Below, piece by piece: positions 24,496 to 30,412 of a stretch of 30,412 nucleotides of DNA. The notes beneath the pieces are model-generated. The model was not told where the DNA came from and did no database searches. It was given only the letters and a program-made list of their open reading frames with translations. The number at the start of each line of letters is the position of its first letter. The first letter of the stretch is position 1. The position numbers and the translations under genes were made by a program. Origin of the DNA: a virus; IMG/VR virus record IMGVR_UViG_3300032116_000936, positions 1 to 30,412 of that record; one strand, given 5' to 3'.

Positions 24496-25495
24496 GAGAT
24501 AAGGTTTCTATATCACTATCTACCATATCTTTTACCATATCTTCAAAAGAAATTTCAGGATGCCAATCTAGTTGATTCTGAGCTTTTGTAGTTTTACCTC
24601 TAAGATACTCTACTTCTGCTGGACGATATAGATTTTCATCAATTTCAACATGTTTAGTATAATCTAAACCAGCATATTCAAAAGCCATTCTTAAGAAATC
24701 AAATACGCTCCAAGTATCTTCGCTAGCTACAACATAATCATCAGGAACATCAGATTGCAACATAAGCCACATGGCTCTTACATAGTCCTGAGCATGTCCC
24801 CAATCTCTATGGGCGCTAAGGTTGCCTAACTTTAAGGAATCGTTTGTTAGATGATTAACTACTTGACCTATATATTTAGTTATTTTTCGTGTAACAAAAT
24901 TTTCTCCACGACGTGGACTTTCATGATTAAAAAGTATGCCGCTACAAGCGAATAATCCATATGCTCCTCTGTAAATTTGAACCATACGATGACTAGCTAG
25001 TTTTGCTACTCCATATGGACTCTGAGGAATAAATTCCGTATTTTCATCTTGATATGGTAGTCCATCATCTCCGATTTTAAAGTTTTTGCCAAACATCTCA
25101 CTGGTGCTAGCCTGATAAAATTTGGTGGTGTTAGAATAGTTTTTTATGCTTTCTAAGATATTAATTACTCCAATAGTATCTATCTCAAAAGTTAATGATG
25201 GCTGTTTGAAACTGGTTCCGACATGACTCTGAGCAGCCAAGTTATAGAATTCATCTGGCTGATATTTTGAGATAATAGAATTAACATTAGACGAATCTGT
25301 GATATCACATTCTTCTAATTTAAAATTAGTATTATCTAGAATATGAGATATTCTTTGAAAATTATTAGTACTATTTCTTCTATGTAATCCTATAACGTCA
25401 TATCCCTTGGAAAGCAAAAGATCACACATATATGATCCGTCCTGTCCAGTGACTCCGCTAACCATTGCTAGTTTATTAAATTTATTTGTTTTCAT
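24488..25495 (-). CDS. gmd: GDP-mannose 4,6-dehydratase (335 aa)
   Basis: This short-chain dehydrogenase converts GDP-D-mannose to GDP-4-keto-6-deoxy-D-mannose, precursor of GDP-fucose, GDP-rhamnose and related sugars. Features: the NADP-binding GVTGQDGS (residues 14-21), LHRRNSTNNFQRI, NLAAQSHVGTSF, the catalytic set in QASTSEMFG (Thr131, Glu133) and SPYGVAKLASH (Tyr161-x3-Lys165), and FNHESPRRGENFVTRKI. The length is slightly shorter than the ~350-370 aa of cellular enzymes, and all key residues are present, so it should be active. It lies between the candidate small terminase and the HNH gene with short overlaps on both sides. No reductase or epimerase (e.g. fucose synthase) is in the window, so the host or another phage region must finish the sugar. 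Confidence 0.92.
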   Translation of the reverse strand: MKTNKFNKLAMVSGVTGQDGSYMCDLLLSKGYDVIGLHRRNSTNNFQRISHILDNTNFKLEECDITDSSNVNSIISKYQPDEFYNLAAQSHVGTSFKQPSLTFEIDTIGVINILESIKNYSNTTKFYQASTSEMFGKNFKIGDDGLPYQDENTEFIPQSPYGVAKLASHRMVQIYRGAYGLFACSGILFNHESPRRGENFVTRKITKYIGQVVNHLTNDSLKLGNLSAHRDWGHAQDYVRAMWLMLQSDVPDDYVVASEDTWSVFDFLRMAFEYAGLDYTKHVEIDENLYRPAEVEYLRGKTTKAQNQLDWHPEISFEDMVKDMVDSDIETLSHV

Positions 25496-26300
25496 CTAAT
25501 TTTATACTTTCTGGAGTTAAAAAGGGTCTATCTACATTATGATCATTATATGAATGATATTCAAACAGGTTTTGTTTTGCTCTTTCTGTTGCTAATGCCA
25601 ATATTTCCATTTCCTTGCCTTCTCGTTCTCTGATTTGTTCGTCTTCTAACATTCTTATTAATCCCACCCAGCTACTTTTACCATCTTCGATTCTTTTAAT
25701 ACGTTGTTCACGAGTAGCTTTTAAGTCTTTGCTTATTTTTTGCTGTTCATTAAGTAATTTAGTATATTCATTAGTATAATTTGCTATACTATTACGAGCA
25801 AAGCTTAATTGAGTTTCAAGACTCATAAGTTTTGGTCCGTCTCTTTGATCTTCTGGTTTCTCGTATTCTTTATCCACCATGCGCTGCAGTTTTTCAGTAT
25901 CTGCAATATGTCTTTTCCTTTCTTTCATACTTCTATTGATTAGAATATCAATTGTAATAAACTGTTTAATTTGTAACTCTTCGGCCGGCAAAACATCTTC
26001 TCTAAACTGCTTGATAAGTCCTATCCAAGTATCTTCAAAATACTGAAGTTCTCCCGTATCAGCATCAAACTGTTTGGCTATTTCGCTCCAAAAGGTTTTG
26101 CTATGTAATTTATATCGTAATGTTTCGTGAGCTTGTTTATCATCTGTGGAAGAAAATAATTGATTTTCACTAATGTATCTTTTGATAGGAGCTTCGTGAC
26201 GATTAAGATACTCCGCAATTTGCTCTATAGTTAACTTGTCAAAATTTTCCGTTATAAACTTTTCTTCATCAAGACTTAGTTGTCCACGTTTTTTACTCAT
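25482..26300 (-). CDS. Candidate terminase small subunit, HTH plus coiled coil (272 aa)
   Basis: The N-terminus (residues ~7-48) reads as a helix-turn-helix: SLDEEKFITENFDKLTIEQI, AEYLNRHEAPIKRYISENQL. The remainder is almost wholly helical and highly charged, with coiled-coil text (NEYTKLLNEQQKISKDLKA, TREQRIKRIEDGK). A DNA-binding head plus an oligomerising helical body is the architecture of small terminases, and the gene is upstream of the large subunit in the same transcript, with dehydratase, HNH and ERCC4 genes in between. No other candidate is visible. A regulatory DNA-binding protein is the alternative. The start is eight bases inside the end of the sigma-like gene. I do not recognise the family by sequence. 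Confidence 0.55.
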   Translation of the reverse strand: MSKKRGQLSLDEEKFITENFDKLTIEQIAEYLNRHEAPIKRYISENQLFSSTDDKQAHETLRYKLHSKTFWSEIAKQFDADTGELQYFEDTWIGLIKQFREDVLPAEELQIKQFITIDILINRSMKERKRHIADTEKLQRMVDKEYEKPEDQRDGPKLMSLETQLSFARNSIANYTNEYTKLLNEQQKISKDLKATREQRIKRIEDGKSSWVGLIRMLEDEQIREREGKEMEILALATERAKQNLFEYHSYNDHNVDRPFLTPESIKLDENK

Positions 26301-26919
26301 CTAATATGCCCTCAATAAATTTTTGCAATTTTTTAATATCACTTTTATTTACTTTGGTTCCGTGTTTAATTTTTAGATAAATTTCACGATATTCGCCGGA
26401 TAAATTTGATTCTAATTTTTTAATTAACTCATTATCGCCCATTACATCTTGAAAATCTTTAGTAACTCGACCCTGAATAGATCCGCTATCTTCTATAGAA
26501 GTTGGTTTCATTATGTTTTTTTTACTGTCGTTCCTATTGATCCATTTTCGATATAGTTCGCAATCCATAACATTACTAAATTCTGAACACTGATTAATTG
26601 AGCAGGAAAACTTGGGATCATAAAAAGGACAACTCAAGCATGGTTTATCGGGCCTTTTGTAGTTATCTCTTTTATAATTAAAGAGGCGATTTCTAACGTG
26701 AGTCCAGAGGAAATTTTCAAGGGGGCGTTTGTTGTCATATTTTTCTAATCCTTCAAGAGCAAATATGGCGGCCTGTTGACACATATCTTCATAGCTATGA
26801 TAGCCAAATTTAAATTTGTGGCCTAATCTTTTGCTAATATTATCTAAAACAATTAAAAATTCTTCTTCGCTAACGTTATTAGGAAGCGGTGTTTTGCTCT
26901 TTTTCGGTTTTTTCTTCAT
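26293..26919 (-). CDS. Sigma-factor-like protein with cysteine cluster (208 aa)
   Basis: Residues ~20-90 resemble sigma-70 region 2, the part that binds RNA polymerase and melts the -10 box: YHSYEDMCQQAAIFALEGLE, KYDNKRPLENFLWTHVRNRL, FNYKRDNYKRPDKP. The same layout is seen in the T4 gp55 type of late sigma factor. An unusual insert follows with Cys94, Cys97, Cys106, Cys111 and Cys120 (CLSCPFYDPKFSC), plausibly a zinc site. The C-terminal ~40 residues (GEYREIYLKIKHGTKVNKSD) could be a reduced region 4. The gene overlaps the end of the 54-aa ORF by 41 bases. It would direct host polymerase to phage promoters, probably the GTGTAT class found here. Family membership is likely; promoter specificity is inference. 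Confidence 0.75.
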   Translation of the reverse strand: MKKKPKKSKTPLPNNVSEEEFLIVLDNISKRLGHKFKFGYHSYEDMCQQAAIFALEGLEKYDNKRPLENFLWTHVRNRLFNYKRDNYKRPDKPCLSCPFYDPKFSCSINQCSEFSNVMDCELYRKWINRNDSKKNIMKPTSIEDSGSIQGRVTKDFQDVMGDNELIKKLESNLSGEYREIYLKIKHGTKVNKSDIKKLQKFIEGILDE

Positions 26920-27132: not shown

Positions 27133-27366
27133 ATGGCAACATATAAGAAGTGGACAAGTTCCGAACTAGATTTTATCAATAGTAATCAAAAACTACTTAG
27201 TGATGACGAATTGGCCGGAAAACTATCTCAAATTAGTGGACAATCTGTAACAACCGCTATGGTTCGTAGACAAAGACGCAAACTAGGAATTCAAAAGTCA
27301 AAAGGAAGACGTCCCAAGAATAGGGTTGTAGAGCCTGTAGTAGCTGGAAATACTGTTTCTGAATGA
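27133..27366 (+). CDS. Small DNA-binding (HTH/SANT-like) protein (77 aa)
   Basis: A basic protein with a three-helix, Trp-anchored N-terminal domain: KKWTSSELDFINSNQKLLSD, DELAGKLSQISGQSVTTAMV, RRQRRKLGIQKSKGRRPKN. This is the layout of Myb/SANT-like or homeodomain-like DNA-binding domains, with an AT-hook-like GRRPK tail. AAGGAG lies seven bases before the ATG, and an intrinsic terminator follows, so it is its own transcription unit. It is divergent from the sigma-like operon across a short shared gap, so it may regulate that gap, though this is inference. It faintly resembles the N-terminal domain of the candidate small terminase. Confidence 0.75.
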   Translation: MATYKKWTSSELDFINSNQKLLSDDELAGKLSQISGQSVTTAMVRRQRRKLGIQKSKGRRPKNRVVEPVVAGNTVSE

Positions 27367-27407
27367 TCTTGTTGAGTTTTATATCAAATATAGGTCAAAA
27401 GACAATT

Positions 27408-27439
27408 GGGTAGGCTAAATGCTTACCCTTTTGTTTTTT
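27408..27439 (+). terminator. Intrinsic terminator after the HTH gene
   Basis: GGGTAGGC and GCTTACCC pair as an eight-pair stem (one G-U) around a five-base loop, followed by TTTTGTTTTTT. It lies about 40 bases after the HTH stop and just before the ribosome site of the next gene, so that gene would be read mainly by leak-through or from an unseen start. Confidence 0.85.
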
Positions 27440-27452
27440 AAGGACAATTTTT

Positions 27453-28733
27453 ATGAAACAATTATGTGTTTGCTCAACATTCTATAATCCTACTAATGCG
27501 AAACTAAGAATTGATAACTATAATCGATTTTTAAAGTTTATGCAAGATAGTGGACTTGAGGATGATTTTTATGTGTGCGAAATATTATTTCCGGGACAAA
27601 TGTCTTCTATAAGCGGAAAGAATGTTTATACTCTAACTAATAGTAGCATTTTGTGGCATAAAGAATCTGGGTTGAATTATTTATTTGATAAGTTAAAAGA
27701 TAAGTATGAGAAAGTGGTAGTTGCGGATGCTGATGTTGAACTTCCTGATGGATGGGTAGAAAAAACAATAGATGCTTTAGACATTTATGAAATGATTCAG
27801 CTATATAGCAAGATATGTTATTTGCAACCTGATAATATCTATGTTGATGAAATCTTACCTGGTTGTGCAGCTATTCATAAAATCAAGAATAAAAAAGGAT
27901 CAGCTGGTGGTAATAGTGGGGCTATTGTTGCTTATAATATGGATTATATAAGATTCATGGGGGGACTTTTTGATAAAAATATTGTGGGGGGCGGAGACTA
28001 TATTAATATGATGCCGTTTTTAGACGGAGATTCTTTTGGTATTTCTACTATAAGCTATTTTTTCAATGATATATGTCATGAGTTTTTAAAATATTATGCA
28101 AGGGCGAGTCATTATCTGAACTATGTTTCAAAAAAGATCAATTATGGATATTTAGATTATTCTGCTAAGCATTATTTTCATGGAAGATTAAATAAAAGAT
28201 ATTACTTGGCTAGAAATAAAATTATAGAAAATAAAAATTTTTATGAGTATTTTTTGAAAGATGATAATAATTTATATTATTTTAAAGATAATGAGTGCGA
28301 TTTAGCTACTGATATAAAAAAGTATTTTTGGGACAGGTGTGAGAATGTGGAGCATCTGGGTTATAAGATTCATTCGTCAAATTTATATTATACCGAAAAT
28401 GATAGTTTCAGGTGGTGTCAACCAGATACTATTTTTTATATAAAAGATAAGATATTTTCAATTAAGTTGGTTTTTGAAAGAAATGAATACGTGAAAAATT
28501 TCAGAATGCATGATGCAGAAAAAGAGGCTGTTGGCTTGTCGGGGGACACTGGTATAATGTATGTAATTGACAACTATCCTGAGGTTCTAAAGATAGATTC
28601 TGATTTTTTCATTCCTAGCGTAACGGAAAATTCAACAGATACTAGGAAATTATCATATAAGTTAATTGATGTTTATATTAAGGTTAATGAGGATAGTGAG
28701 TGGGAAAAGTATTCATTAGACAAAATTTTATGA
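27453..28733 (+). CDS. Glycosyltransferase, GT-A-like (426 aa)
   Basis: The first ~260 residues are homologous to the N-terminal half of the two-domain transferase at 6674: CEILFPGQMSS against ELLYPGQTSS, LWHKES against MFHKEN, VVADADVELP against LFLDADIRF (the DxD metal and sugar-nucleotide motif, residues 92-94), FDKNIVGGGDY against FDKALIGGGDV, and YFHGRLNKRYYLAR against HLDHGSSENRKYKDR. The C-terminal ~160 residues (IFSIKLVFERNEY, YKLIDVYIKVNEDSEWEKY) look like a separate beta-rich domain without recognisable family. AAGGA lies nine bases before the ATG. No signal peptide or membrane segment, so it acts in the cytoplasm. Acceptor unknown; virion protein or host surface glycan are the main options. 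Confidence 0.8.
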   Translation: MKQLCVCSTFYNPTNAKLRIDNYNRFLKFMQDSGLEDDFYVCEILFPGQMSSISGKNVYTLTNSSILWHKESGLNYLFDKLKDKYEKVVVADADVELPDGWVEKTIDALDIYEMIQLYSKICYLQPDNIYVDEILPGCAAIHKIKNKKGSAGGNSGAIVAYNMDYIRFMGGLFDKNIVGGGDYINMMPFLDGDSFGISTISYFFNDICHEFLKYYARASHYLNYVSKKINYGYLDYSAKHYFHGRLNKRYYLARNKIIENKNFYEYFLKDDNNLYYFKDNECDLATDIKKYFWDRCENVEHLGYKIHSSNLYYTENDSFRWCQPDTIFYIKDKIFSIKLVFERNEYVKNFRMHDAEKEAVGLSGDTGIMYVIDNYPEVLKIDSDFFIPSVTENSTDTRKLSYKLIDVYIKVNEDSEWEKYSLDKIL

Positions 28734-28744
28734 GGAGAAATATC

Positions 28745-29047
28745 ATGTGGAAAATTGTTTTGTTTGTAGTACTGAGTGCGGGTTGTTATGCGTCAACAAA
28801 TGCTCAGCAAGTTGTTACTGAATATCAATTGCAGAATGTTCAGTATCCCGTTACTAATATGGTTCCTGTTACAACAATAGTAAATCAACAAGTGTGGGTT
28901 CCTGTTGTTAGAGTAATTCCTGTTCAGTATCTGGTTCCTATTCAAACACAAGTAATTCATAGAAGTTGTTTGTTGTTTGATAGATGGAATGATGCTAGAG
29001 TTCAAAATAATTATTGGATAACTCCCTATAGGGTCTATAACTATTGA
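28745..29047 (+). CDS. Small exported repeat protein (100 aa)
   Basis: I start it at the ATG with AGGAG eight bases upstream; the open frame extends 45 bases further into the previous gene but lacks a ribosome site. Residues 1-21 are a clear signal peptide (MWKIVLFVVLSAGCYASTNA) with a probable signal-peptidase I cut after TNA. The cysteine in LSAGC is a poor lipobox, so a lipoprotein is less likely. The mature part alternates Val/Pro/Gln/Tyr: NVQYPVTNMVPVTTIVNQQV, WVPVVRVIPVQYLVPIQTQV. I see about five loose V-P-V units and no catalytic motif. The style recalls short-repeat surface proteins of planctomycetes, a weak host hint. It lies directly after the glycosyltransferase stop, suggesting co-expression and a cell-envelope role, for example superinfection exclusion (inference). 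Confidence 0.75.
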   Translation: MWKIVLFVVLSAGCYASTNAQQVVTEYQLQNVQYPVTNMVPVTTIVNQQVWVPVVRVIPVQYLVPIQTQVIHRSCLLFDRWNDARVQNNYWITPYRVYNY

Positions 29048-29053
29048 AATAAT

Positions 29054-30160
29054 ATGTCAAGACCCAAAGGATCAAAAGATAAAACTAAAAGAAAAACCAA
29101 AAAAATATTGGGGGGAATTGATGAAAGAAATCTTATTAAAGATTATGAATCTGGAATATCTACAAAAATTTTAATAGAAAAATATAATGTTAGTAAAACT
29201 TTCATTAGTTCAATGTTTAAGAGAAGAGGATTATGCAGGAGGGTCGATCAATCTGTCATTAATTCGTGGGAATCTATAGATCAAAATATTTTAAATGATT
29301 TAGATAAAAATATAAGTGGCGTATATGCTATATATTTTATCAATAAGTATGATAACAACGATATTAAATTATATATTGGTAGTAGTGTTAATATTAAAAA
29401 TAGATTACGAGATCATTTATATCAATTAAAATGCAATAAACATTACTCTAAAAAATTATTTGAATTATATAATAATCTTAATTATAATTTAAATCTAGCT
29501 ATAGTGGAACGATGTTCTGAAGATATTATTTTGCAGAAAGAGCAGCAGTATCAGTCTAAGTGGTCAAAGAGCTGTTTATTAAATATGTGGAATAGTGTTA
29601 AAGAAGAAGATTTAAGGCCGTGGCTACAACAAGCTGTTAAAAATGATAGTTATGTTAAAAGATTTGTTATAAATGAACAAACATCATGTAAAGAAAGTTT
29701 ATTTATTCATAAAAGTGGCTATGCTAGAATGAGTGTAACCATTAATGGTTTTAGTGATGAGCCTGGAGAGACTAAGTATTTATATAAGCACAGGGTGGCT
29801 TATTGGGAAAAGTATGGAGAGTATCCTGAGTTGGTTAGGCATTTGTGTAATAATCCTAAGTGTTATAATGCTGATCATCTAGAAAAGGGAAACCACAAAG
29901 ATAATATGTTGGATAGAAGGGGCGATTTTCCTAATGAATTTGAAGAAAAGTGGTTAGAATTTGGTGGAGACATGGTTTTACTAAGTGAATATTTTAGAGA
30001 CAAATGGAGTTGTAACCAGGACATAGGCGGGAAAAAAGTATCATATTCGATATACGAATGGGAAAAAAAATTAGATTTAAGAAAAAAGTATCCTGATATT
30101 ATTAGGAATAATAAGAATCGTAGATACAATCATATGCGTTTAATAGATAGGTTTAGCTGA
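29054..30160 (+). CDS. Dual GIY-YIG and HNH_3 nuclease with HTH (368 aa)
   Basis: Residues 1-20 are a basic RPKGSKDKTKRK leader. Residues ~24-63 form a helix-turn-helix (SGISTKILIEKYNVSKTFIS). Residues ~88-175 are a GIY-YIG nuclease: SGVYAIYF (GIY), KLYIGSSVNIKNRLRDHL (YIG plus Arg) and Glu163 in QKEQQYQ. Residues ~220-290 match the HNH_3 group: YLYKHRVAYWEKYGEYPE, VRHLCNNPKCYNADHLEKGN, HKDNMLD (His263, Asn272, His275, His281). Both cores look intact. Free-standing phage homing endonucleases normally carry one such catalytic domain. It follows the exported-protein gene by six bases, without a clear ribosome site. Homing is the default role; anti-competitor cleavage is possible. Confidence 0.8.
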   Translation: MSRPKGSKDKTKRKTKKILGGIDERNLIKDYESGISTKILIEKYNVSKTFISSMFKRRGLCRRVDQSVINSWESIDQNILNDLDKNISGVYAIYFINKYDNNDIKLYIGSSVNIKNRLRDHLYQLKCNKHYSKKLFELYNNLNYNLNLAIVERCSEDIILQKEQQYQSKWSKSCLLNMWNSVKEEDLRPWLQQAVKNDSYVKRFVINEQTSCKESLFIHKSGYARMSVTINGFSDEPGETKYLYKHRVAYWEKYGEYPELVRHLCNNPKCYNADHLEKGNHKDNMLDRRGDFPNEFEEKWLEFGGDMVLLSEYFRDKWSCNQDIGGKKVSYSIYEWEKKLDLRKKYPDIIRNNKNRRYNHMRLIDRFS

Positions 30161-30412
30161 TACATTTATATTTTTAGGCGCTTATTGAATATGGATGTCC
30201 GCTGGTTTTTTCGAGAAATCTAGAACATGCCATCTAAAACAGAAAAACCCCCTGCCTCTAAAAGAGTAGATCGATTCGATCAGATAGTTAACGTAACTCG
30301 TTATAGGCTATAGAGTTATGGTAAATAAGAGTGGCGATTTTTGACGTAAAGTGTTGTGAGATAATGACTTACGACTAATACGATGATTGATACGATATTG
30401 TGTTTTAAAAAA
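30161..30412. other. Mostly non-coding right end
   Basis: About 250 bases after the nuclease gene with stops in all frames on both strands, apart from the doubtful 28-aa frame. It contains a small inverted repeat, GATCG-att-CGATC (around 30272-30284), and short ATACGAT repeats in the last 40 bases. No promoter, tRNA or terminator is convincing. Confidence 0.4.
30227..30313 (+). CDS. Doubtful 28-aa ORF at the right edge
   Basis: A short frame starts MPSKTEKPPASKRVDRFDQI and stops at TAG after 28 codons. The composition is gene-like (basic, Pro/Lys N-terminus then an amphipathic stretch), like the beginning of a longer phage protein, but all three frames are closed by stops just beyond and no good ribosome site is seen. 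It may be a decayed gene start or chance. Confidence 0.25.
   Translation: MPSKTEKPPASKRVDRFDQIVNVTRYRL

Follow-up and report, generated by a model that had tools for sequence, protein, structure and literature searches.

A predicted phage homing endonuclease with GIY-YIG and HNH_3 nuclease domains on a single chain

The usual description of a homing enzyme is that of a single nuclease joined to DNA-binding parts. The I-TevI family follows a layout of an N-terminal GIY-YIG domain, a linker and a C-terminal DNA-binding domain, with a single nuclease, and I-PpoI and I-HmuI are single-nuclease proteins as well. A GIY-YIG domain and a second enzymatic module are found on one chain in UvrC. The I-TevI and T4 Seg GIY-YIG enzymes are described as one nuclease domain plus DNA-binding parts (PMC2988022). 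With a single active site, I-BmoI, also of the GIY-YIG type, introduces two nicks in succession that result in a double-strand break (PMC3161791), and the HNH enzyme I-PfoP3I nicks one strand (PMC3428280). An archaeal GIY-YIG/endonuclease III fusion carries a second enzymatic module (PMC1564403), and in MegaTev and TevCas9 a GIY-YIG domain and a different nuclease on one chain make two breaks that excise the intervening stretch (PMC5751168).

Here we describe a gene from a stretch of viral DNA of 30,412 nucleotides (IMG/VR record IMGVR_UViG_3300032116_000936), called the window in the following. Its product shares with I-TevI and the T4 Seg enzymes the GIY-YIG fold and catalytic residues, the intergenic location, the presence or absence in relatives and an HTH DNA-binding part, but its GIY-YIG domain sits between the HTH and a second nuclease. 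With the HTH N-terminal and the second nuclease C-terminal, it falls outside the I-TevI family proper. It resembles I-HmuI, I-PfoP3I and I-PpoI in HNH_3 profile and fold; unlike in I-PpoI and I-HmuI, the HNH_3 domain shares its chain with a GIY-YIG domain. In the case of MegaTev and TevCas9, GIY-YIG is likewise joined to a second, different nuclease, but these proteins are man-made with LAGLIDADG or Cas9 as partner, whereas the present one is natural, old and has an HNH_3 partner. UvrC and the GIY-YIG/endonuclease III fusion differ in that they belong to DNA repair, have no homing context and carry a second domain unrelated to HNH_3. As in HEG-islands and exchange-boundary HEGs (PMC10448857), exchangeable cargo adjoins, DNA-binding parts are modular and the flanks show breakpoints; those HEGs are of the T5orf172 and HNH types, and the parts covered of that paper describe no GIY-YIG and HNH fusion. 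Among the papers listed by full-text searches of the open-access literature, no natural GIY-YIG plus HNH homing protein turned up.

Domain layout and conservation

The gene (29054 to 30160, + strand, as are all its parts) is an open reading frame from ATG to TGA encoding 368 aa, delimited with Pfam and an alignment of 23 members. It begins with a basic stretch, MSRPKGSKDKTKRKTK (29054 to 29101), identified in the alignment, missing in the L008/L018 and L223 members and presumably AT-hook-like. The N-terminal RPKGSKD stretch also resembles part of another phage protein, which we read as a common basic motif. Next comes an HTH at residues 20-64 (29111 to 29245), with helices at 21-32, 37-44 and 48-57 in an AlphaFold2 model and matches to HTH proteins at Z 4-5 upon structure comparison. 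The GIY-YIG domain occupies residues 86-181 (29309 to 29596), with a Pfam match at 91-169 (E 2e-5, 25.2 bits, cut-off 22.6) and a match to I-TevI at E 3.4e-10. The HNH_3 or His-Me finger domain, residues 182-289 (29597 to 29920), was assigned by the alignment, fold matches, Pfam HNH_3 at 244-285 (E 9.2e-8, 32.1 bits, cut-off 24.8) and PHROGs HNH families at 202-299 (best 7.7e-15). Finally, a conserved HTH-like region at residues 292-351 (29927 to 30106) was delimited by the alignment and the model, in which the C-terminal part is helical and HTH-like.

This model, built with 23 family sequences, has a mean pLDDT of 85.9, with both nuclease regions mostly at 80-96; an earlier model with 7 sequences had placed much of the HNH part below pLDDT 50, which the larger one resolved. 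Residues 86-181 superpose on I-TevI with Z 12.6 and an rmsd of 1.9 over 91 residues. For residues 182-289, the matches are the SMAD MH1 fold with Z 6.5, I-PpoI with Z 6.1 and I-HmuI with Z 4.9; these Z values are middling, and the HNH assignment is carried by the HNH_3 profile. Titles of entries among the structure matches of this region name I-PpoI H98 mutants.

At the residue level, the GIY-YIG motif comprises G89-V-Y91, Y107-I-G109, R117, H121, E163 and N177, and the HNH motif R262-H263-x-C265, C270, N272, H275 and N284. Except for N272 (at least 90%), all of these are invariant in the 23 aligned members, and C212 of the HNH domain is invariant together with H263, C265, C270, H275 and N284. 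We take the spacing H263-x-C265-x4-C270-x4-H275-x8-N284 to be that of the I-PpoI residues. The GIY and YIG motifs, the catalytic R, E and N and the fold place the first domain in the GIY-YIG superfamily; a general-base His, a metal-binding Asn and a beta-beta-alpha fold place the second among the His-Me fingers (HNH_3). Altogether, the original prediction of a single protein with two complete nuclease cores and an HTH is borne out, as profiles, model and invariant residues agree: Pfam detected GIY-YIG and HNH_3 in 23/23 members, down to 30% identity, the predicted structure contains both an I-TevI-like and an I-PpoI/I-HmuI-like fold, and none of the aligned homologues has lost catalytic residues. 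A chance match to nuclease domains is ruled out by the same agreement, and two overlapping genes were rejected because both domains, with their conserved residues, occur in every member.

For the pairs tested, dN/dS was 0.14-0.34 in the GIY half and 0.03-0.27 in the HNH half, the ratio being rough in two pairs whose HNH dS exceeds 2. Judged by these ratios, both halves are under purifying selection. It could nevertheless be argued that only the GIY-YIG domain cuts and that the HNH fold is a zinc-supported DNA-binding module like SMAD MH1, a non-nuclease relative of the I-PpoI-type fold, which the region matches about as well as I-PpoI itself. We consider this unlikely, since H263 and N284, both dispensable for a pure binder, are invariant in all 23 members along with four putative metal-site residues; the reading preferred here is that both active sites work.

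The age of the arrangement was approached by scanning IMG/VR with the whole protein, the GIY half and the HNH half, which yielded 25 distinct members by our own count. Every locus recovered by the two half-protein scans, 33 with the HNH half and 23 with the GIY half, encodes both halves, at identities as low as about 30%; several of these loci are repeat sightings of contigs already counted. The scan patterns are family-specific, so that single-domain cousins further off would be missed. It had been suggested that the protein marks a recent fusion of a GIY-YIG gene with an HNH gene, and stand-alone relatives do exist on both sides, namely the HNH-only MaMV-DL02 200L and the GIY-YIG genes L180 and L183. 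Such a recent fusion, or an annotation accident of two neighbouring homing genes, is nevertheless highly improbable given the joint occurrence at all these loci; in the decayed allele L134 the halves are now split, by a deletion of 106 bp. In another decayed allele, L041, a frameshift removes the C-terminal part of the nuclease.

No full-length relative was found in the phage isolates or plasmids searched, nor in the sequences of solved structures searched with the single protein, and two genome scans gave 0 loci and 1 locus (L260), respectively. L260 (NZWA01000009.1) carries the nuclease and, judging by its equal length, is probably the same contig as L214. Its assignment to a Flavobacteriales MAG points weakly to the host. 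The nucleases of L214 and L238 share about 78% DNA identity through HTH, GIY-YIG and HNH and differ in their C-terminal regions, so the C-terminal DNA-binding part has apparently been exchanged. Long C-terminal extensions occur in L008/L018, L214 and L223; by eye they consist of repeated HTH units, which resemble the small HTH-like gene next door.

Genomic slot, occurrence and inheritance

Two conserved neighbours lie to the left, both on the - strand: the 272-aa regulator reg272 (25482 to 26300), with a weak D5-like PHROG match, and sig208 (26293 to 26919), a sigma-70 region 2-like gene. The slot itself opens with a 77-aa gene that is HTH-like by eye (27133 to 27366, + strand), followed on the same strand by a 426-aa cargo gene (27453 to 28733; glycosyltransferase-like by eye only, no Pfam match) and a small, apparently secreted protein of 115 aa (28700 to 29047), similar small genes being present in other alleles. 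A reg272 homologue lies near the nuclease in 21 of the 25 distinct members, usually with sigma-like and small HTH-like genes, and these neighbours are kept even at only about 30-40% identity; the flanks examined of L011, L014, L018 and L223 contain none. Wherever the site can be seen in near members, a conserved intergenic block follows the nuclease immediately on its 3' side, and the left neighbours change. The cargo after the small HTH-like gene varies among GlmS-like aminotransferase, subtilase, epimerase and LamG/fn3 proteins. Across the slot in the window (27133 to 29047) and in L010-L112, GlmS-like, subtilase, epimerase, GNAT-like, glycosyltransferase-like and small secreted genes vary, and the slot behaves as if it were a hotspot for surface-chemistry genes.

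The nuclease is a gene of its own between genes and is in this sense free-standing. An intron-encoded endonuclease was ruled out, as no Rfam family matched in the window and no interrupted gene was seen around the nuclease. To the right of the slot, L010, L011, L012 and L053 show short intergenic repeats in several copies per genome. Contig ends lie within about 1.4 kb of the nuclease in the window, L010, L014, L015, L017 and L087, a pattern that polymorphism of the site within the population would produce.

A scan with reg272 gave 430 matches, from which 80 relatives were kept, some with contigs that stop short of the slot. The nuclease was found intact or decayed in 3 of the 80: L041 (frameshifted), L089 and L111. 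The contig of L087, 96% identical to L089, stops within the first codons of the gene; because it still includes the start of the nuclease, it was dropped from the empty alleles. When 16 nuclease-free records were searched for the nuclease elsewhere, no match appeared, although this search misses short stumps, as the L087 record among them went unmatched. The gene is therefore present or absent at one fixed site in related genomes, as is characteristic of homing endonucleases, and the empty allele for which a search had been proposed does exist.

Tree comparisons point in the same direction. Among 14 near phages the nuclease data reject the regulator tree (AU p 2.6e-76), and so does the reverse comparison (1.1e-6). 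The GIY and HNH halves each accept the joint nuclease tree (AU p 0.14 and 0.11), and each rejects the best tree of the other half. Both halves also reject the tree of the neighbour. Among 13 phages the nuclease data reject the trees of three neighbours by 358-420 lnL units. As a control, neighbour genes were found to reject each other's trees by 27-111 lnL, with the nuclease comparisons spanning 148-420; part of the incongruence is thus explained by general recombination, of which the nuclease is the extreme case. Distances of nuclease and regulator correlate over 20 phages (r 0.87), so much of the inheritance at depth is vertical, whereas within the 14 near phages r is 0.15 (p 0.08). Inheritance independent of the backbone was thereby found for the nuclease, and less strongly for its neighbours, which recombine too. 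Single cases illustrate this: L012 and L212 are sisters by three neighbours and have distant nucleases, and L017 and L089 show the reverse. The clearest breakpoint is that of L010. Its left flank follows nuclease-free L103 at 84% identity until 18 bp ahead of the start codon, and its right flank follows nuclease-free L098 at 95% identity from a point 92 bp past the stop codon; L103 and L098 both have the A-form of the block described below.

These patterns also bear on whether the nuclease is domesticated, with a phage task such as excluding competitors or cutting host or phage DNA in place of selfish homing. It keeps one position over deep divergence, adjoins sigma-like and regulator genes and is under purifying selection, and T4 marker exclusion (PMC2988022) is an example of exclusion and homing going together. 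Most close relatives, however, are without the nuclease, decayed copies occur and its inheritance is unlike that of its neighbours, which makes domestication improbable in our view; homing is the reading we retain.

The adjoining intergenic block as candidate target

The conserved intergenic block, ending in AAAACAGAAAAACCCCC (30180 to 30252, + strand), is the candidate target. It holds GGATGTCC at 30193-30200, where most nuclease-free relatives read GGACCACC, and it exists in two forms, an A-form TTAAACTGGCCAATT and a TTTAGGTGATACATT-like B-form. In the window, the B-form site TTTAGCTGATACATT (30152 to 30166, + strand) overlaps the nuclease stop codon. The reading of this site as the nuclease's own 3' end was rejected: many relatives without the nuclease have the site too, there placed behind unrelated genes such as a subtilase, an epimerase-like gene or, by eye, a GNAT-like acetyltransferase. 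No nuclease remnants were found upstream of these nuclease-free B sites. Both forms of the conserved site (window 30152 to 30252) also occur in nuclease-free genomes, so the B-form is by itself no footprint of the nuclease. The site may act as a promoter, an origin or a structured RNA.

Carriers and non-carriers differ in the block. The B-form was seen in 16/16 distinct carriers with a visible site, as against 22 of 44 nuclease-free alleles (the other 22 being A; p 1.8e-4); the nuclease-free B rows come partly from a scan for the B-form, a bias that works against the contrast. Of the 16 carriers, 12 have lost the motif ACCACC, which lies at about 40-55 bp within the block, and 35/44 nuclease-free alleles keep it (p 1.7e-4); among B-form alleles only, 4/16 carriers keep it versus 17/22 without the nuclease (p 0.0026). 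The best single column reaches p 1.9e-4, beyond the 1% quantile of permuted labels (5.8e-4). Three carriers are not counted among the 16: the block pattern did not match in L214, L134 had been merged with L122, and the contig of L014 stops at the gene. One distant carrier, L259, was mislabelled as a nuclease-free B row; recounted by hand without it, nuclease-free alleles are 21 B and 22 A, ACCACC is kept in 35/43, and the contrast is slightly stronger.

Site identity is 0.60-0.69 in pairs of carrier and non-carrier and 0.75-0.99 when neither has the nuclease, with downstream flanks alike (at least 0.83) in both; the two carriers L017 and L089 have a site identity of 0.71. The altered block in carriers hints at the target of the nuclease, and since the alleles share ancestry and the signal is correlational and post hoc, we treat it as a target prediction only.

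Homing model and its meaning

From these sequence comparisons we conclude that the gene probably encodes a free-standing homing endonuclease in which a single chain carries two functional active sites. The HTH-like modules at both ends would hold the protein on the conserved block beside the regulator and sigma cluster, and the GIY-YIG and HNH domains, whose active sites are intact and selected, would both cut or nick within it. When the break is repaired from a carrier phage, the empty allele would receive the gene, probably together with about 70-90 bp of altered flank, a step suggested by the present and absent alleles and by the breakpoints in the flanks. With its flank altered, the carrier itself would be resistant.

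How the two domains share the work can be framed in several ways. Two cuts or a nick plus a cut at a site chosen by the HTH had been suggested at the outset, and HTH-like parts lie at both ends of the protein. The options are one cut plus a nick, two cuts, or a division of the strands between the domains. As a first guess, the GIY-YIG domain might make a double-strand break and the HNH domain a nick within the block. It is also conceivable, though we regard it as doubtful, that the two nucleases cut two spots of one block and remove the stretch between them, as a natural MegaTev. If true, such a break would be very difficult to reseal, forcing repair to copy the gene and flank of the carrier; having two blades would then be a long-standing adaptation that makes homing efficient, maintained throughout the depth of the phage group.

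The stable and old two-nuclease form makes the benefit of a second blade testable, be it two-site cutting, forced repair or one strand for each domain. Known empty alleles and a predicted target accompany this compact natural protein, itself predicted to be a double nuclease on one chain. As judged from its sequence, engineered fusions of the MegaTev type have a natural parallel in architecture.
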